From: a virus
IMG/VR virus record: IMGVR_UViG_3300027749_000017
Location: 1 to 36,934 of that record
Direction: 5' to 3' (one strand)
Length of the DNA: 36,934 nt
Below the pieces are notes generated by a model. It was not told the DNA's origin. It did no database searches and saw only the letters and a program-made list of their open reading frames with translations. Positions 5,400 through 13,201 of the stretch are shown here, one piece after another. The first letter of the stretch is position 1. Each line of letters opens with the position of its first letter. The position numbers and the translations under genes are program-made.

Positions 5400-7682
5400 T
5401 CATTTCACCAACCGCACAGACAAGGGCGGCGCGGTTTCTACCATGTCTCGCAGGTCAGATTTTGGCATTGTCGCCATATCTGGCGCGGCGAAGATGTGCT
5501 TCTTGTTGTCAAAGCGGCGAGACTTCAGCCGCCCCATATCGACCCATCCGGCCTCTTTTAAGGCGTGTAGAAGGGCAGGCTGCACAATTCGCACCGAACC
5601 CTGCACCGACCCCTGCAAACGGTCGCACAGGGCGTGCCAAGGGGCACCGACAACGCCTTTGGAAAACTCACCTAGACGGTTACGCATAAGATCAACAAGG
5701 AACGACTCAGCGCCACTCATACCGGCCTCAACCATAATGGCCTTGGCTTCTGTCAGCATAGGTGTTGCGCCAGGCGCGAAGGCAGACACGTCACGGGCGT
5801 GAAGCCACGCGGCGACAGCGCTCTTGCCCCCTGCCTCCAACCACGCCCATATTTTCGCGCCATCGGCGTCATTCATGCGCGGGGCGTCCGACCAGATGAC
5901 AAACCACCTGCGATCATCAGACGGGAGGTTGATGGCAACGCGCTCATTCGAGAACGCGATGATTTGCAGACGGTTCACCAGATCGTAAGGCGCTAGACCT
6001 TTACGCTGCACCGATAAAAACTCAGGCGGCGCGGCGATTAAGGGTTTCATTGTGTTCTCAAGCGCCCTTCTGTCCCTCGCCTCGCTCTGGCGTAATTCAT
6101 TGACAACCAGAACTTCAGTCTCCAAGGCGTAGCCCCATTGGGATGTGATCTCCTCATTGCGGACAAGGGAGACGTTCCGCAAGGCTTTGCCACCGATTGA
6201 CCAGAAAAACGGTGCCCACATCGTATCTTTACCCGACCCAGGGTTTCCCCCATGCAGTACGGCGTGATTGATCTTAATGTGGGGCTTCTGCAATTTAAAC
6301 GCCATCACGTCAAAGACGTGCGCGCGCTCTTTTTCGTCAGGCACCATACGCTCGACGTGATCGAGCCAAGGCTTAATGTTGCCTGCGACTGCCACCGGAC
6401 GCGCATCGCGCCAGCGGTTACCGTAGACGATGCCGTCACGCGAGCAGAGGATAGACTCGCCTGCTGCGTAGGTGACACCCTTCAGGATACGCGCGCCTTT
6501 CTTCTGACGGTTTTCGTCGTAACAGGTGCCTGCCTCAATCTTGGGGCGTTTGCCATGCAAACTGTTGCAGGCGATATGGCGAAAGATGGCATTGAACGAC
6601 GCGCGGGACACTTCGTGACGCTCGATTAGATCAAAAAAGGCGTCATCGTCTTGCAGGTAGGCGAAACGTTCGTACCAGCCTTCCTTCTCGACCCGTTGCA
6701 GTTCTTTACGCTCGACCTCTGCGATCACAGCCGCTGCCGCATCGGGGAACGCTTCGGTAGGTTGGAGTTTGTTAACCGCCGCGCCCATCACAGACGCAAG
6801 CAGTTCTTCACGCAAACCAGGTGTGTGTTTTGGCCCACCATTTTCGGCGACCCAATCCAAATAGGCGCGGCTGCCAAAGTCAATGCAATGGCTGTGCAGG
6901 CAGGTATAAGCACGATTCGCAGGCATATATCGGCCTTCGGGGTTGCCGTCGGTATGTGAGGCGCTGTTGGGGCAGATCACGCCAGCCCAACCTTCTTGAT
7001 TCGGGCGGGATAAGAGTAAACCCTGCTCAGACAGCCAGATCATCACGTCATCGGTGCCGTCATCTGAGATGCGGATCGGCTTGTACGCATCCACCGACGC
7101 GGCAGGCGTTACGTTCAGGGCAGTGCAGATTTGCGCTAATGAAAAGTCACGTTCTGGATGGAACTCACGCAAGACGGACTTAAACGAATTGCGGTCGGGC
7201 TTGATGTTGACGCTGCCAGGCAGACGAAAATTACGCACGGCGTTGATCGCGCCCTTGTCCGTGTAACCTGCTTCGGCGATGGCAATGATGGCGGCGCTGA
7301 AGTCGGCCTTGGTTGGCTGCTCATTGAAGACGTAACCCCACTGGAACGAACCTTCGGACGTTTCCATCTTCCAAGTCGGCTCTAATGGCGGCACGGTGGC
7401 CTTGGTGCCCACGTCGTCCAGCACCATCACAAGGACATACTCGCAGTTGGCGGCACTGGCGCTGACGTGGCCATCTCTGAATCGGTCAACGATGAACGAC
7501 GCAGTGTTGCCGTAGATCGCCCAATCATCCTTGATCTTGGCGTCGGGTAGCATGGCAGGCCACGTACACTTGATCGCACCGTCGGCGTGGTACTGGTACT
7601 CGCCCTCTTTAAGTTGTGGCTTTTGCCGCACAATTAAAAAAGTTTCGCCTTCTGGCGCTAATTTTGTGAGAAAATCTAACAC
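5400..7682 (-). CDS. Primase-helicase with DUF5906-type ATPase
   Basis: The protein primes and unwinds DNA at the phage fork. I set the start at GTG 7682 (MLDFLTKLAPEGETF), eight bases after an AGGAG at 7691-7695; an upstream opening to 7796 would run through a hairpin and lacks such a site. The product has 760 residues. The N-terminal third has the MVLDDVGTK motif (about 86-94) seen in RepB/primpol-type primases. A zinc-binding pattern (CPNSASH then CLHSHC, about 237-266) follows. The C-terminal helicase has a Walker A loop at about 478-487 (GGNPGSGKDT), then VLVVNELRQ and DDRRWFVIWSDA, as in DUF5906/D5-like ATPases. It is the last gene of the leftward replication unit, ending at the convergent terminator. 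Confidence 0.88.
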   Translation of the reverse strand: MLDFLTKLAPEGETFLIVRQKPQLKEGEYQYHADGAIKCTWPAMLPDAKIKDDWAIYGNTASFIVDRFRDGHVSASAANCEYVLVMVLDDVGTKATVPPLEPTWKMETSEGSFQWGYVFNEQPTKADFSAAIIAIAEAGYTDKGAINAVRNFRLPGSVNIKPDRNSFKSVLREFHPERDFSLAQICTALNVTPAASVDAYKPIRISDDGTDDVMIWLSEQGLLLSRPNQEGWAGVICPNSASHTDGNPEGRYMPANRAYTCLHSHCIDFGSRAYLDWVAENGGPKHTPGLREELLASVMGAAVNKLQPTEAFPDAAAAVIAEVERKELQRVEKEGWYERFAYLQDDDAFFDLIERHEVSRASFNAIFRHIACNSLHGKRPKIEAGTCYDENRQKKGARILKGVTYAAGESILCSRDGIVYGNRWRDARPVAVAGNIKPWLDHVERMVPDEKERAHVFDVMAFKLQKPHIKINHAVLHGGNPGSGKDTMWAPFFWSIGGKALRNVSLVRNEEITSQWGYALETEVLVVNELRQSEARDRRALENTMKPLIAAPPEFLSVQRKGLAPYDLVNRLQIIAFSNERVAINLPSDDRRWFVIWSDAPRMNDADGAKIWAWLEAGGKSAVAAWLHARDVSAFAPGATPMLTEAKAIMVEAGMSGAESFLVDLMRNRLGEFSKGVVGAPWHALCDRLQGSVQGSVRIVQPALLHALKEAGWVDMGRLKSRRFDNKKHIFAAPDMATMPKSDLRDMVETAPPLSVRLVK

Positions 7683-7707: not shown

Positions 7708-7732
7708 AGCCCCCGTCTTATCCACGGGGGCT
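7708..7732 (+). terminator. Hairpin between two leftward genes; T-run only on the plus strand
   Basis: AGCCCCCGT (7708-7716) pairs with ACGGGGGCT (7724-7732) around a seven-base loop. The T-rich tail (TTCTTTTATT) follows on the plus strand, so it would terminate rightward transcription, yet both neighbours are leftward genes. It starts five bases after the upstream leftward stop codon. It may block antisense transcription, or protect or process the leftward mRNA ahead of the primase-helicase ribosome binding site. Confidence 0.5.
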
Positions 7733-7737
7733 TTCTT

Positions 7738-8577
7738 TTATTCGATGGTCGTTTCGTAAACTTCACACGATTCGGAACAACCACCATCCTCGTCAACGCG
7801 GCTTAACCGCGTCGGCGCATCTTTATTTTCTTCATATAGCTTAAACAGCCCAATGGTGTCGATGTTCTTGCGAAAGAACACACGGTCACCGACTTGAGGG
7901 CCATGCGATCGGTACTGCTGCTCCATGCGCCGATGAAAATCAAAGATACCGGCATCACGTTCAATCTGCATGAATTGCTTTTTAATGGACTTTTTAAAGC
8001 ATCCTTGGCAGTTACCCTCAAATTCGTCAATCCCAAGGTCAAAGGCTTGTTCAGACCACCAATCCAAAATGTCGCTTTTGTCTGTCGGCCACACGTCAAT
8101 CAAAGGGTATTCGATATTCTTGGCTTCAGCGGTCTTGCTGACGCGGCGTTTCTCGTCCTCACGGATGCCGATTGCTGTCGGGATGGTGCGGTAATCAAAG
8201 CCAAGGCTTCGCAAATACGAATTCATGGGGTTGATCTTGAGTTCACGGGTGCAATACGGAAACGCCATATTGGGGATGCCGTACTTTTTGATAACTTCCT
8301 CAAACGGTTCGCCGTTACGCGCTGCGCTAATGTAATCAACAACTTTGTGCGTACTAGCGACGCGGCCATCATGCACGACTGCTTCCAACCACACAGTGTT
8401 AAAACCAAAATGCACGTCGCAGTTATGGACAAACTCCAACGTCTTGGGGTGTTCCAGCGCCGTGTTGGCAAACGTGACAATGAACTCGTATTTGTCTGAC
8501 CAGTTGTCGAGCAACAACTTGGTCATGTAGGCGCTAGTGCGCCCACCAGAAAAAGAGATTTGATACTGCGGTTTCAT
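7738..8577 (-). CDS. PP-loop (PAPS-reductase-like) protein 1
   Basis: This 279-residue protein belongs to the PP-loop ATPase/PAPS-reductase superfamily, which activates substrates by adenylation for sulfur or related chemistry. ATG 8577 is chosen because it overlaps the upstream stop (ATGA). The PP-loop is SFSGGRTS at 8-15. PYCTREL (C109) and AIGIRED (135-141) correspond to the conserved Cys-Thr-Arg and substrate-loop regions. Two more cysteine pairs, C190/C193 (NCQGCF) and C267/C271, could hold an iron-sulfur cluster together with C109. Classical PAPS reductases lack this cysteine layout, so sulfate reduction is not the first choice. Next to a second such gene and between polymerase and primase, a base- or backbone-modifying role is plausible. 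That role is inference. Confidence 0.82.
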   Translation of the reverse strand: MKPQYQISFSGGRTSAYMTKLLLDNWSDKYEFIVTFANTALEHPKTLEFVHNCDVHFGFNTVWLEAVVHDGRVASTHKVVDYISAARNGEPFEEVIKKYGIPNMAFPYCTRELKINPMNSYLRSLGFDYRTIPTAIGIREDEKRRVSKTAEAKNIEYPLIDVWPTDKSDILDWWSEQAFDLGIDEFEGNCQGCFKKSIKKQFMQIERDAGIFDFHRRMEQQYRSHGPQVGDRVFFRKNIDTIGLFKLYEENKDAPTRLSRVDEDGGCSESCEVYETTIE

Positions 8578-9275
8578 AACGAACACACTCTGCACGTTGG
8601 AGCGTTACCGTCCCCCCGAATCTTGCGGCCATTGGCGAATTCAACCGCCAAATCTTTCAACGCCGCAGGCCATGCGTCGCGTTGCGGTGATCTGAACGTG
8701 TGGCCTAGCTGTTCTTCCACTGCCACACCACGCGCATATTCTTCAGGGTAATCACGCCAAAGATCACGCCATTCGCCCAAACGTTGGTAAGGGCACACGG
8801 CGCAATCGGTACGGCGCGGGATCGTCACTTCACGTTGCCCTAAGTACGTCCACACGTCCTCTTCTTTCCAGCCCCACTCACGCATGGGAAACCGGATTTT
8901 CATGTCTTCACCGTAGATGCCGCGCCGCGCTTCTTCATCTGCACGCAAGCCCACATATAAGACAGACCCTTCGGGCAGTGTCTCAAAGTAGGCAATCGTA
9001 GGTTCGATCTTTAATATGCGTGTACACCATCTGGCGCGAAAGTTTGGCAGCATTTGCATCTGGTCGATCAGGCCATACAGGTCGGTCGAGTGCCCGACGC
9101 GCTTGATAGGCAAGCCCATCATGCGTTCCAATTTAGCCCAATGCTCAACCATCTCTGGCAGTTCGTTGCCCGTGGCGTTGCAAATCAGTTCGTATTCGCG
9201 GGGTTCGACTTCCATCAAACGCAGCGCCAACGCGGTGGAGTCTTTGCCCCCACTTAGCCCTATGACGTGTTTCAC
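8574..9275 (-). CDS. PP-loop (PAPS-reductase-like) protein 2
   Basis: The 233-residue product starts at GTG 9275 with AGGAG six bases upstream. Its PP-loop is LSGGKDS at 7-13, followed by CNATGNELP (32-40), ARWCTRILKIEP (C84) and VGLRADEEAR (108-117), typical of DndC-like and PAPS-reductase-like enzymes that bind ATP. CxxC pairs at C158/C161 (CAVCPYQR) and C228/C231 could ligate a metal or iron-sulfur centre. The gene overlaps the polymerase stop by four bases (GTGA) and the next PP-loop gene by four bases, so all three are probably co-translated. The two PP-loop proteins share motif order but differ in overall sequence, as expected for an old pair or a heteromer. The substrate is unknown. 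Confidence 0.85.
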   Translation of the reverse strand: MKHVIGLSGGKDSTALALRLMEVEPREYELICNATGNELPEMVEHWAKLERMMGLPIKRVGHSTDLYGLIDQMQMLPNFRARWCTRILKIEPTIAYFETLPEGSVLYVGLRADEEARRGIYGEDMKIRFPMREWGWKEEDVWTYLGQREVTIPRRTDCAVCPYQRLGEWRDLWRDYPEEYARGVAVEEQLGHTFRSPQRDAWPAALKDLAVEFANGRKIRGDGNAPTCRVCSL

Positions 9276-11191
9276 GAATATCTCCTAGTTGTTACACCTT
9301 CAGCGGCCAATGGCAGGCCACTTGCCCATGCAGGCGGCGTACACATGATCTTATGGATATGTGCGGCTGTCGATTCTGCCTCAGATTCGGGGCACTCGAC
9401 GACGATTTCATCATGGACGTGTGCGATCACACCGTCCAGTTGTCTCAGGGCGTAGCGTAGGATGTCATTGGCGGTCGCTTGCACGACATTCTCACAAGCC
9501 AGCCCACGCCATAGACGGGCGCGAGGCCACTCTGTCGCATCGGCGGCAGGCTTCCAAGCTGCTTTGGTATATGTCACGTTGCCTTCTTCGTCGAATTTGG
9601 CGTTGGGGTAGCACAATACCCGACCAGAAGGAAGACTGTACCAAAGAGTCTGGCCATCAAACAAGTACACAATTCTTCCCGCAGCAAATTCATGCCCTTT
9701 GTTTCTCATAGCGCGCAGGTACGCGCCTTCCAATTGCGTGCCGTGGTGCATAGCCCAAGGGTTTGCCCTACGCCAGCCCTCGACCGCCCGTGCAACCTCG
9801 CCCGTGGACAGGTGGATACCGTAGACGCGCCCGAACACTTCAAACGCGCCAGCCCCTCCCAGAAAACCCAGCGCTAACTCTTGCACCTTGCCCACCTGTC
9901 GCTGGTCACCCGTCACGTCGTCATAGGCCACACGGAACGTCGCCGTGGCGTTGACCTTGTACGGGTCAAGACCCGACCGGAACACATCCAGTTTGATCTC
10001 ACCTGCTGGGCAGTTGGACAGCCACGGATGCACGCGGCCTTCGATGGCCGACCAGTCGTAGGCAATCAGAACGTTGCCAGGCGCTGCCACGATAGCAGGG
10101 CGAAGCATCTTCTTCAGAACGTCTGTAATGCGTTGTTCGAATCGTGGCACGATCTCATGGCCTCGAACCATTGCTGTGCGGACGGATTCGGGGTCTTTAG
10201 CGCTTTTACGCGGGAGATTATGGACTTGAGCGCCATAGGACGAAGCGCGCCCTGTTGCACTGCCTCCAGCAAAAACAAAGGCACCTCTAACTCGGGCATC
10301 TTCCTCGTCTGCCAAACTTGCAAGGCGGCTGAACTTCGCAACACTCGACGCCCAGAGGTCATCGGCGCACTGTATAACTTCGGCAACATCCGGCGGGACT
10401 TCATCATGGTTCTCCATCGCAAGCAGATTCGCTCGCACGTTTTTGTCTATGGAATACTTCTCGCCCGTCCACATCAGCTTCTTGGCTTCAGGGCCGACGC
10501 GCTCCAGCACCCACTCGCGCATCTTCGGCGAGCGCACGCTGGTAATCTGGCCTTCGGTCACTTCGGCCACGATCTTCTGGATTTCGTCCATCTCAGCGCC
10601 AGCGTACTTGACGGCGGCTCGGCACAAGGGCACGTCCACCATCAGGCCACGATCATTGATGCGCTCGTTGACGTGGTAGTCAAGCAGTTCATCTGGACTA
10701 AGTGGCCGCATAGCCTTGCTGACCGCACGCATGGCCCTTACATCTTGTTCGCAGTAAGCAACCATCTCGGCCATCAGGGTCGGATCGTTGTTGAAGCTAC
10801 CATCGGACTTGGGTATGCTCAACAGTCGGATTAGTTGGGCACCACGGTGGTCTTTCTTCATGGCCGCGCCAGCAAAGCGCCCCACATCTTCTAGGCCACC
10901 AGGCGCGCAGTTGGCACGGGCTTGGGTCGCCGTGCAGTAAAAGGATTCAAGAGGGTAGTTCTGCTGGAGAACATACCAGAACATCAAACGCTCAAACGCC
11001 GCGTTGTGGGCGTAGATTATGTGACCTGTGAAGTCAGGTAGTGGGCCACTTACCCAAGTCTGCACTTCTTCATCGTCAAAGGCGTAAGACATACACAGCA
11101 CCTCGGTGCTGGCGTGTTGCGCGTAGTTGTAAACGCCTGCGGTTTTTAGGTCGCAGGCGCTACGGGTTTCAAAGTCAACCCAAAGAGTCAT
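9272..11191 (-). CDS. DNA polymerase, family A, with 3'-5' exonuclease
   Basis: This 639-residue enzyme replicates the phage genome. The N-terminal exonuclease domain has VDFET (D6, E8), YAHNAAFE (about 60-67) and the YCEQD motif (about 146-150). The polymerase domain shows motif A (IAYDWSAIEGR, about 376-386), motif B (RQVGKVQELALGFLGGAGAF, about 431-450) and motif C (HVHDEIVVE, about 591-599) with the catalytic aspartates. ATG 11191 shares one base with the upstream stop (TGATG). Compared with Pol I it lacks the 5'-3' exonuclease and is compact, as in many podophages. It is followed immediately by the two PP-loop genes. Motifs are intact, so activity is expected. Confidence 0.95.
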   Translation of the reverse strand: MTLWVDFETRSACDLKTAGVYNYAQHASTEVLCMSYAFDDEEVQTWVSGPLPDFTGHIIYAHNAAFERLMFWYVLQQNYPLESFYCTATQARANCAPGGLEDVGRFAGAAMKKDHRGAQLIRLLSIPKSDGSFNNDPTLMAEMVAYCEQDVRAMRAVSKAMRPLSPDELLDYHVNERINDRGLMVDVPLCRAAVKYAGAEMDEIQKIVAEVTEGQITSVRSPKMREWVLERVGPEAKKLMWTGEKYSIDKNVRANLLAMENHDEVPPDVAEVIQCADDLWASSVAKFSRLASLADEEDARVRGAFVFAGGSATGRASSYGAQVHNLPRKSAKDPESVRTAMVRGHEIVPRFEQRITDVLKKMLRPAIVAAPGNVLIAYDWSAIEGRVHPWLSNCPAGEIKLDVFRSGLDPYKVNATATFRVAYDDVTGDQRQVGKVQELALGFLGGAGAFEVFGRVYGIHLSTGEVARAVEGWRRANPWAMHHGTQLEGAYLRAMRNKGHEFAAGRIVYLFDGQTLWYSLPSGRVLCYPNAKFDEEGNVTYTKAAWKPAADATEWPRARLWRGLACENVVQATANDILRYALRQLDGVIAHVHDEIVVECPESEAESTAAHIHKIMCTPPAWASGLPLAAEGVTTRRYS

Positions 11192-11823
11192 CAAACAGAC
11201 CGACGACGACGACCGGCTGATGCTGGCGCTTCTGGCTCAACTTCCTCAACCGGCGCACCATCAAGGCCAACCCACTCAACAATCTCAAACACTGGCGTGT
11301 AGATTTTGCCGTAGGACTTGTGCTGATAGTGATCCTTTTTGAGTTTCACAATAGCAACAGGCTTAGCTTGGTCTTTATCTACTTGCGTAGCAATGGCCAC
11401 ACCCAACGCCTGAACCGCTTTTTTACCGCCCACCGAAGTGGTTGTAAAGCGCGCTTCCATATCCTTGTCTTCGCCTGTGGTGCATTTCAAAGACATCCCG
11501 ATCTGAGTCTCCCAACCACGCTTGGCGTCCTTATGCGCGGCTTCAAGTTCAGGCAACGGTTCAGCGACGCCCACCATCTTTTCGCCCAACACTTCGCCGT
11601 CACCCCAAGCAATAAAGCCGTGGATAAAAGAGAAAGGGTTGATCGCCCAAAGGGACTCGGCCTCGACTTCTGTCTGATCCGCACCAAAGACCCAGTGGCC
11701 TGTCTTGTCCATTTTCAGGATGACGTTACCGGCTGGGCCTACGTCTTTTTCAAGAGCGCGAAGCGATGTAGACAAAGAAGAAACTGCTGGCAGATTTGCC
11801 GAAGAAAAAGTAGTCAATTGCAT
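11191..11823 (-). CDS. Conserved replication-module protein (210 aa), possibly ssDNA-binding
   Basis: The product begins MQLTTFSSANLPAVSSL and contains the conserved stretches WAINPFSFIHGFIAWGDG, MSLKCTTGEDKDM and DHYQHKSYGKIYTPVFEIV, followed by an acidic linker (EEVEPEAPAS) and a basic tip (GRRRRSV). I recognise this type from phage replication modules, always near polymerase and Cas4-like genes, but no activity is established to my knowledge. A beta-rich core with a flexible charged C-terminus resembles single-stranded DNA-binding proteins, and no other SSB candidate is visible here. The SSB role is therefore a guess from context. Its stop overlaps the polymerase start. Confidence 0.7.
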   Translation of the reverse strand: MQLTTFSSANLPAVSSLSTSLRALEKDVGPAGNVILKMDKTGHWVFGADQTEVEAESLWAINPFSFIHGFIAWGDGEVLGEKMVGVAEPLPELEAAHKDAKRGWETQIGMSLKCTTGEDKDMEARFTTTSVGGKKAVQALGVAIATQVDKDQAKPVAIVKLKKDHYQHKSYGKIYTPVFEIVEWVGLDGAPVEEVEPEAPASAGRRRRSV

Positions 11824-11832
11824 TTTTAACTT

Positions 11833-12945
11833 TCATTGGATTTTAGAAAGAGCAGCCGTCAGGCCACTCAACTGCAACACTGCTGGGCGAGGATCGTCCT
11901 CGCTTGCCAATGTTGTGCCTGAAGACACTGACACCACAAGTTCGGGTGGCAATGTCAACTTGCTCTTTTTGAGTAATTTCTCAGCGGCTGCTGGCGAAAT
12001 CACTTCACGTTCTTTATACGGGTCAATCCCTGCTACATTCATAACAATAACAGCTTCATCATCGCTGACCCATTGTCTTGTACCGCGCTTAGCGACCAGT
12101 TTGTAACCAGGTACAGGCATCGACTTTTCTAACAACTGAACCGCCAGATCGCGCAGGTCTTTGATCCAGCTTTCAATCATCTCAGCATTTTTGAGATACT
12201 GACTGAGCATTGTAATGTCTAACTCTTTCAATTGCGTTTGCAATGCGCGGTCTACTGCGCCAGTCATCTGTGGGCACACCGGCTTGGCCGCGCACCAACG
12301 GCAGTGGTCACCAGTGGCCAGTTTGGCGTCAGGCAACTGTGCGACTTGCACGGCCTTGACCAGATCACGCTCGAACTGTGCGATGCGTTCCTTGGTGGTC
12401 ACCCAACGCTTAATCATGGGCGGCTGGATGATGATGCACTCGATCTCGGTTGCGCCATCAAACGCCCACTTGGCGGCGTCGGTACGCATGGCCGCAGCCG
12501 CGTAGAACATCAGTTGTTCGTTCTCTACAGCATCAACCACAACACCGTCGCCAAATTTCCAATCCAAGACGATAGCGCGATCACCAATCCTACCAACAAG
12601 GTCAGTAGAACCAAAGACGTTAGGCAAGAGATTGCCAAAACCAACGCGAGTCTCCACTTCATACATCATCTCCTTGTTGGGGTCTACTTCATCCAGTAAA
12701 GAAAGTGCGGACACGATCTTCTCATCATACAAGTCTTGCGTCAGCACTTGGCCTTCGTAAGTCGTGCCGATCACATCAACGTTCATGTCCTCAAGAATAG
12801 CGCTGATGGCGTTGTGTAGCAATGTGCCACGGTCTGCGTGTTCACTGGAGGGCTTGGGAGGCATCTTCTGCACCAAGACTACAGAGCCAGGGCAGTTGAT
12901 GACGCGCTTGGCGGTCGAGCCGCCGACGATGTTACTGTGTTGCAT
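11833..12945 (-). CDS. Cas4-like PD-(D/E)XK exonuclease (DUF2800 type)
   Basis: I place the start at ATG 12945 (MQHSNIVGGSTAKRV), preceded by GGAGA; the opening back to 13194 would overlap another likely gene out of frame. The 370-residue product has an N-terminal cysteine (NCPGS, C18) and a C-terminal HCRWCAAKPVCPQ cluster, which together can hold a 4Fe-4S centre. Between them are DRGTLLHNAI, YEVETRV, FGSTDLVGR and VLDWKFGDG, the acidic and lysine residues of the RecB/Cas4-like nuclease core. The family is common in phage replication modules, usually next to the same SSB-like gene. It probably resects DNA ends for recombination. Confidence in the nuclease fold is high; the polarity of cutting is unknown. 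Confidence 0.85.
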   Translation of the reverse strand: MQHSNIVGGSTAKRVINCPGSVVLVQKMPPKPSSEHADRGTLLHNAISAILEDMNVDVIGTTYEGQVLTQDLYDEKIVSALSLLDEVDPNKEMMYEVETRVGFGNLLPNVFGSTDLVGRIGDRAIVLDWKFGDGVVVDAVENEQLMFYAAAAMRTDAAKWAFDGATEIECIIIQPPMIKRWVTTKERIAQFERDLVKAVQVAQLPDAKLATGDHCRWCAAKPVCPQMTGAVDRALQTQLKELDITMLSQYLKNAEMIESWIKDLRDLAVQLLEKSMPVPGYKLVAKRGTRQWVSDDEAVIVMNVAGIDPYKEREVISPAAAEKLLKKSKLTLPPELVVSVSSGTTLASEDDPRPAVLQLSGLTAALSKIQ

Positions 12946-13111
12946 CTGCTGTCTCCAAAAGAGTGTTGATCCCGTCACGCAGTTTGATTGCTTGCGCTCG
13001 GGTGAGACCTGCGCTGGTGTACGCGCAATGGCGATTGACGCTAATCCATACGCCGTCATCGTATTCGCTAACGGTGACGCTTGCGCCGTCTGTTTCAATT
13101 CTTGTGTCCAT
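12932..13111 (-). CDS. Small hypothetical protein, 59 aa
   Basis: The frame begins MDTRIETDGASVTVSEYDDG and continues VWISVNRHCAYTSAGLTRAQ, with a helical end (AIKLRDGINTLLETAD). AGGA lies seven bases before the ATG. It is the first gene of the leftward replication unit and overlaps the Cas4-like start by 14 bases. A short beta-hairpin followed by a helix is predicted, without a recognised family. Leading position downstream of a promoter suggests high early expression. It was hidden by a longer overlapping frame, but the ribosome binding site and operon position support it. Confidence 0.72.
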   Translation of the reverse strand: MDTRIETDGASVTVSEYDDGVWISVNRHCAYTSAGLTRAQAIKLRDGINTLLETADATQ

Positions 13112-13151
13112 TTTACTGTCCTGTAGTTGCTACCCAAAAGTGGGTGATGCA

Positions 13152-13181
13152 ATCTTAGCACATAAAATAAATGTTGTACAA
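13152..13181 (-). promoter_or_regulatory. Leftward promoter for the replication unit
   Basis: On the minus strand TTGTAC (13181-13176) is followed after 18 bases by TAAGAT (13157-13152), which is preceded by TGC as in extended -10 promoters. Transcription would start near 13145, giving a leader of about 34 bases that contains the AGGA site of the 59-residue gene. Confidence 0.55.
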
Positions 13182-13201
13182 AACTTTTTTTCATGTATTA
13201 T
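13174..13201 (+). promoter_or_regulatory. Rightward promoter for the nuclease-helicase unit
   Basis: TTGTAC (13174-13179) and TATTAT (13196-13201) are separated by 16 bases. Counting from the -10 box, the first transcribed base would be about 13208, exactly the A of the VRR-NUC ATG. The -35 is half of the palindrome TTGTACAA (13174-13181), whose other half serves the leftward promoter. Confidence 0.55.

Follow-up and report, generated by a model that had tools for sequence, protein, structure and literature searches.

The window, as we call the whole stretch of 36,934 bases analysed here (an IMG/VR virus record), derives from a tailed phage and encodes a terminase, a portal and a major head protein. 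On its minus strand an exonuclease gene is followed by a 210-aa core gene, the gene of a family A DNA polymerase, two genes termed A and B, and a primase/helicase gene. A and B are genuine open reading frames. The initial annotation had described them as two adjacent PP-loop genes between polymerase and primase, joined to each other and to the polymerase by overlaps of four bases, and both statements agree with the following features of the region.

5400-7682, minus strand: primase/helicase-type protein (DUF5906), probable start GTG 7682
7708-7732, strand not given: hairpin of 9 pairs between B and the primase
7738-8577, minus strand: gene B, NinC-like PP-loop protein, 279 aa, ATG start (ORF; phrog_424, NinC alignment)
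7765-7779, minus strand: C-terminal CxxxC of B (CSESC), Cys267/Cys271, tail predicted to be disordered (alignment, model)
7999-8010, minus strand: CxxC of B (CQGC), Cys190/Cys193 (alignment)
8251-8253, minus strand: Cys109 codon of B (YCTRELK; alignment)
8574-8577, minus strand: ATGA, overlap of 4 bases between A stop and B start
8574-9275, minus strand: gene A, SspD-like PP-loop protein, 233 aa, GTG start (ORF; PADLOC SspD 7.1e-41)
8583-8594, minus strand: C-terminal CxxC of A (CRVCSL), Cys228/Cys231 (alignment)
8793-8804, minus strand: CxxC of A (CAVC), Cys158/Cys161, aligned to DndC Cys280/Cys283
9024-9026, minus strand: Cys84 codon of A (RWCT), aligned to DndC Cys146
9272-9275, minus strand: GTGA, overlap of 4 bases between polymerase stop and A start
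9272-11194, minus strand: family A DNA polymerase, core gene flanking the slots
9282-9286, minus strand: AGGAG, Shine-Dalgarno-like, ahead of A within the final codons of the polymerase
11191-11823, minus strand: 210-aa core gene upstream of the polymerase, tentatively labelled "SSB?"
11833-13194, minus strand: Cas4/RecB-type exonuclease (DUF2800), core gene

The 798-aa open reading frame of the primase is over-extended, GTG 7682 being its most likely start. Because of this start and of the hairpin lying in between, B does not overlap the primase gene. The hairpin is kept at the empty site of L093, a relative with a near-identical polymerase gene, from which the AGGAG in the polymerase end (window 9272-9290) is absent while the end of the protein is almost unchanged.

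The sequence motifs initially noted were all found in both proteins, namely the PP-loop (SGGKDS in A, SGGRTS in B), the CT-R-L segment (CTRILK within RWCTRILK, and CTRELK within YCTRELK), the G-R-(D/E)E loop (GLRADEE and GIREDEK) and the additional CxxC or CxxxC pairs. Five cysteines, located in CTxxLK, CxxC and a C-terminal CxxC or CxxxC, are common to A, B, NinC of phage lambda, SspD and a phage protein named PptA, and the same cysteine motifs occur in three further PP-loop families encoded beside the polymerase of relatives, in one of which (family C) the first motif reads CSQKFK. Cys84, Cys158 and Cys161 of A are cysteine in 48 out of 48 A and SspD proteins, and Cys228/Cys231 in every sequence of this set reaching that far. 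Among the B homologues, Cys109, Cys190, Cys193 and Cys271 are retained in all 46 and Cys267 in 43 of 45. Conservation on this scale argues that the cysteines of A and B are not there by chance. The first three align with Cys146, Cys280 and Cys283 of DndC, which have been reported as ligands of a 4Fe-4S cluster (PMC12193691), and which in A belong to the RWCT and CxxC motifs.

Profile searches assigned A to the SspD family. With the PADLOC SspD model, E-values of 7.1e-41 and 1.7e-11 were obtained for A and B, respectively, while B gave the better match to phrog_424 (2.1e-51, against 3.5e-37 for A), a family which lumps several subfamilies. PAPS_reduct was the only Pfam domain detected, above its cut-off in both proteins, and no curated NCBIfam family exceeded its cut-off for either. 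The note's proposal to search against DndC, TtcA, QueC and CysH was followed up: neither protein matched CysH (including its equivalog model), QueC or, up to E = 1, TtcA; a TilS domain was marginally indicated in A (0.056, below cut-off), and the DndC model TIGR03183 yielded 23 bits for A and 17.5 bits for B, far under its cut-off of 290.4 bits. An alignment with E. coli CysH revealed neither the catalytic ECGLH in A or B nor any of the five cysteines in CysH. The view that these are not plain PAPS reductases was thereby borne out.

The kinship of A points in the same direction as the profiles. Four plasmid relatives (31.6-37.8% identical according to the search) reside in operons with DUF4007 (SspB) and an SspC-type gene, one of them also with a cysteine desulfurase, and when 84,980 species genomes were scanned, SspB and/or SspC adjoined the A relative in 74 of the 80 best loci. 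By this gene company, the nearest bacterial relatives of A are genuine SspD proteins of DNA-phosphorothioation operons. A shares with SspD the PP-loop, RWCTRxLK, GxRADE, the CxxC and the C-terminal CxxC, and shows 33-34% identity to four SspD proteins encoded in operons; it differs in length (233 versus 264-279 aa), and it is a single, swapped phage gene. SspA, SspB and SspC gave no match in the window record or in the viral loci searched, whereas they are present with SspD in the plasmid and genome loci; neither SspB (DUF4007) nor the SspC ATPase was detected in the window alongside its SspD-like protein. Among ten window proteins checked there was no Ssp or Dnd partner, DndB, DndD and DndE included, as had been stated for DndA/B/D/E at the outset. 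With DndC, A has in common Cys84/158/161, falling on Cys146/280/283, and a comparable RWCT loop, but A and B are only half as long as DndC. On profile and kinship, A is thus a solitary SspD-like protein. Two further solitary relatives were seen: one, 48% identical, lies in Azospirillum rugosum (L280:7971-8753) without SspB or SspC and is possibly a prophage gene, and a 46-50% relative is found in NC_023841 (L003), 'Dunaliella viridis virus SI2', for which an algal host is listed, though it is classed in Caudoviricetes and has phage-type genes.

B is, according to its profile match and cysteine pattern, a homologue of lambda NinC and a weaker relative of SspD. NinC (L111:1582-2454) is 31% identical to B overall and has each of its five cysteines, the C-terminal pair again lying in CSESC, a CxxxC in place of the CxxC of SspD. 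Unlike B, it is encoded in the nin region and not beside a polymerase; it is dispensable for plaque formation (PMC10695390). Relatives of B occur in hundreds of phage records and NinC-like genes in many genomic places. On Acinetobacter plasmids (L117:3445-5777) a B homologue directly follows a cytosine methyltransferase gene, an N-6 DNA methylase being encoded about 2 kb further on. Outside the lineage of the window phage, relatives of A also adjoin SNF2-type helicases, DEAD/ResIII-type helicases and an SbcC-like gene, neighbours which fit work on DNA. In another phage (L198:5989-8911) an A relative lies about 14 bases before the gene of an SbcC-like ATPase. We considered this RecF/SMC-type protein as a DndD-like partner and rejected it, as it matches SbcC and not DndD.

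AlphaFold2 gave confident models of both proteins (mean pLDDT 89.6 for A and 91.5 for B), in which the C-terminal cysteine tails had low confidence and are probably disordered, as would be expected of a mobile, sulfur-carrying tail. A structure search meant to name the function yielded as nearest solved folds NcsA, APS/PAPS reductases, LarE and TtuA with TM-scores of about 0.35-0.55, matches at the level of the superfamily only.

We compared the locus with its relatives. The genes of the exonuclease, the 210-aa protein, the polymerase and the primase form an invariant set, in which A, B or both are placed before or after the polymerase. Besides A and B, these slots may hold PP-loop proteins of the families C, D (PptA-like) and E (BrxP/SspD-like), C5 methyltransferases, phrog_757 methyltransferases, Dam, Mom (Pfam 3.1e-33), NUMOD4/HNH proteins, or nothing. 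The further PP-loop genes of families C, D and E are:

L401:6456-7214, L370:3747-4517 and L395:3750-4517
L386:3741-4517, L389:6432-7247 and L426:2915-3730

The flanks, which agree nearly base for base between relatives, disclosed how these genes are exchanged. The sequence ctgaagccccgtgacagggggctttggaaaggagacgctt precedes A in L010, L011 and L013 and B in L063, and a near-identical sequence runs directly into the polymerase gene in L430, L434 and L436. A second flank is followed by A in L028, by family C in L371 or by nothing, and in L424 Mom stands behind a flank matching the one found at A in L017 and other loci. Judging by these junctions, slot genes are swapped precisely at gene borders; in the window, where the AGGAG missing from L093 falls within 9272-9290, the end of the polymerase gene itself seems to contain the border of the exchange. 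The Mom-type gene of L424 (3898-4497) lies behind the upstream flank that A has in other phages, its apparent first codons being that flank. In a polymerase tree of 144 loci, at least 31 changes were needed for A and 12 for B, figures which are not a rate, as the set was enriched for carriers of A and B. Orphan methyltransferases and Mom of phage variable islands occupy the same slots with the same gene-for-gene precision, though their chemistry differs from that of A and B; among the island genes of cryoconite phages whose type is known, those of methyltransferases and homing endonucleases are the most frequent (PMC7468147). Homing by the cassette itself was dismissed, there being no endonuclease domain in A or B (Pfam), while HNH genes in the slots may or may not drive the exchange. 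The presence of HNH genes in these slots marks the site as a general insertion hotspot as well, and function cannot be proved from location alone.

Two earlier suggestions were not supported by these data in the form in which they had been argued. The overlaps had been taken to tie the genes to replication, but L093 and L075, whose polymerases are 98-99% identical to that of the window, have neither A nor B, and their place can be taken by methyltransferase, Mom or HNH genes. Some link with replication may nevertheless exist, because in 95 loci fetched by the polymerase alone, regardless of PP-loop genes, all 22 PP-loop genes adjoin the polymerase, two of these as second member of an A+B tandem. 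The 355 kb of surrounding sequence of these loci contained no PP-loop gene and 25 methyltransferase hits; methyltransferase genes were also met upstream of the exonuclease gene or downstream of that of the primase, whereas PP-loop genes were confined to the sides of the polymerase. It had further been proposed that both proteins together make one modification. Most relatives, though, contain A alone or B alone, replacing each other at the same flanks, which renders two subunits of one enzyme unlikely; A and B look like alternatives. A second A+B tandem was encountered in L060 (2232-3766), and as its A belongs to the 70% subfamily, tandems of this kind may have formed repeatedly.

Comparison of A with its close relatives gave a pN of about 0.05 and a pS of about 0.7 (0.6-0.8), whereas in the same comparisons 9-26% of the nonsynonymous sites of the polymerase differ. 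These values indicate that A is under strong purifying selection. Recent transfer does not account for its high identity, as its synonymous sites are as saturated as those of core genes, a finding which purifying selection fits better. An optional gene that is more tightly constrained than the polymerase is, to judge from these ratios, a working enzyme.

A search of the PDB with the A/SspD profile returned as its best match chain C of 21FY, 'PptA' (1.6e-14; 0.24 for E. coli CysH). Over a stretch of 42 residues, PptA has the same sequence as a protein of Vibrio phage vB_VhaP_VH-5, and the sequence cluster of E. coli IscS includes the entry 21FY. Read from names and shared entry codes alone, 21FY therefore holds a phage PP-loop protein together with IscS. 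The entry was not returned by our structure search (fold library up to April 2026). PptA resembles A and B in its phage origin, its PP-loop and its cysteine pattern, and the PptA-like family sits in the same polymerase-side slots; with an identity of no more than about 20% to A and B, it constitutes a separate subfamily. For the known system, formation of an SspA-SspD complex has been published (PMC7188994). No cysteine desulfurase was detected in the phage, which makes the host IscS the likeliest sulfur donor.

Genes replacing each other at one site tend to share a job. The slot-mates of A and B modify DNA by several chemistries, and together with the kinship to SspD and phosphorothioation this makes sulfur modification of DNA the best reading; the original suggestion of a DNA modification, most likely a thio group, was strengthened accordingly by both lines. 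We consider it somewhat more likely than not that A and B are interchangeable stand-alone phage enzymes of the SspD/DndC kind, which introduce sulfur donated by IscS into the phage DNA and thereby counteract restriction. DNA phosphorothioation reportedly takes a route over an adenylated intermediate, named in the title of one paper. The PP-loop would bind ATP and adenylate the acceptor, for which a phosphate of the DNA backbone is favoured, and a [4Fe-4S] cluster would be held by the three cysteines of CTxxLK and CxxC. The C-terminal CxxC or CxxxC tail would take over persulfide sulfur from the host desulfurase, and this sulfur would displace AMP, giving phosphorothioate, the favoured product, or otherwise sulfur-modified phage DNA. 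Such DNA would resist host restriction, the likeliest benefit, and the slot beside the polymerase would be the site where related phages trade modification genes. Against this reading it must be weighed that the nearest folds of the models include sulfur transferases acting on RNA and small molecules. Known phosphorothioation also needs partners, SspB/C or DndD/E, and as these were not detected, a lone SspD may be inactive or act elsewhere.

PP-loop enzymes are chemically diverse, and A and B might instead attach a thio group to a base, make a product free of sulfur, or modify a dNTP before its incorporation by the adjacent polymerase. The last route would suit the position of all 22 sampled genes, but no kinase or nucleotide-pathway partner adjoins A or B and the SspD/DndC cysteine set favours backbone sulfur, for which reasons we regard such chemistry as unlikely. 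Slightly less credit is given to an interference with defence, in which A and B, by binding IscS, would divert sulfur in competition with DndC or SspD and make the phosphorothioation-based immunity of the host fail, with no need for the phage DNA to be modified. Optional, swapped genes suit counter-defence, PptA and IscS share one PDB entry, and A is close enough to SspD to compete for the desulfurase. A decoy, though, should need no intact ATP-pyrophosphatase site, yet PP-loop, GxRxDE and all five cysteines are kept with dN far below dS, and the slot-mates modify the DNA of the phage itself. Thiolation of tRNA or mRNA in the manner of TtcA, NcsA, TtuA or TrmU, which would support phage translation or protect tRNAs, is improbable to a somewhat greater degree: in the structure search A came closest to NcsA, a [4Fe-4S] tRNA thiolase, and TtuA and TrmU were returned too, but the sequence kinship is to SspD, BrxP and DndC, TtcA and TilS searches gave the results described above, and the neighbours in the slots act on DNA. 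A role in sulfur metabolism as auxiliary cysH, as implied by names like 'phosphoadenosine phosphosulfate reductase', by the PAPS_reduct match and by PHROGs, which files the phrog_424 family under auxiliary metabolic genes, is very hard to reconcile with the missing ECGLH, the other cysteine set and the lack of a CysH equivalog match.

SspD, DndC, BrxP, islands of orphan methyltransferases and the solved PptA-IscS entry were already known. In the literature, as far as our incomplete coverage of it extended, we found no paper on PptA, 21FY or phage-encoded phosphorothioation, none on solitary SspD- or NinC-like genes sharing a slot with methyltransferases and Mom, and none linking NinC to the five-cysteine set.

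A and B probably hide the phage DNA from bacterial defences. More tentatively, and with rather less than even confidence, we propose that they represent a class of phage single-gene DNA-sulfur enzymes comprising at least five PP-loop families, to whose relatives lambda NinC belongs, and that these enzymes need neither SspB/C nor DndD/E, draw sulfur from IscS, act on DNA at the replication fork and, as methyltransferases and Mom do, change hands between phages at one constant position next to the polymerase; many 'cysH' genes of viral metagenomes would then stand for DNA modification. If this is true, the 'PAPS reductase' genes that are common in phages and routinely counted as auxiliary genes of sulfur metabolism would be anti-restriction DNA-modification enzymes, and phosphorothioation-like chemistry would not depend on the customary assembly of several proteins. 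The orphan gene ninC of the much-studied phage lambda would then gain a testable job.
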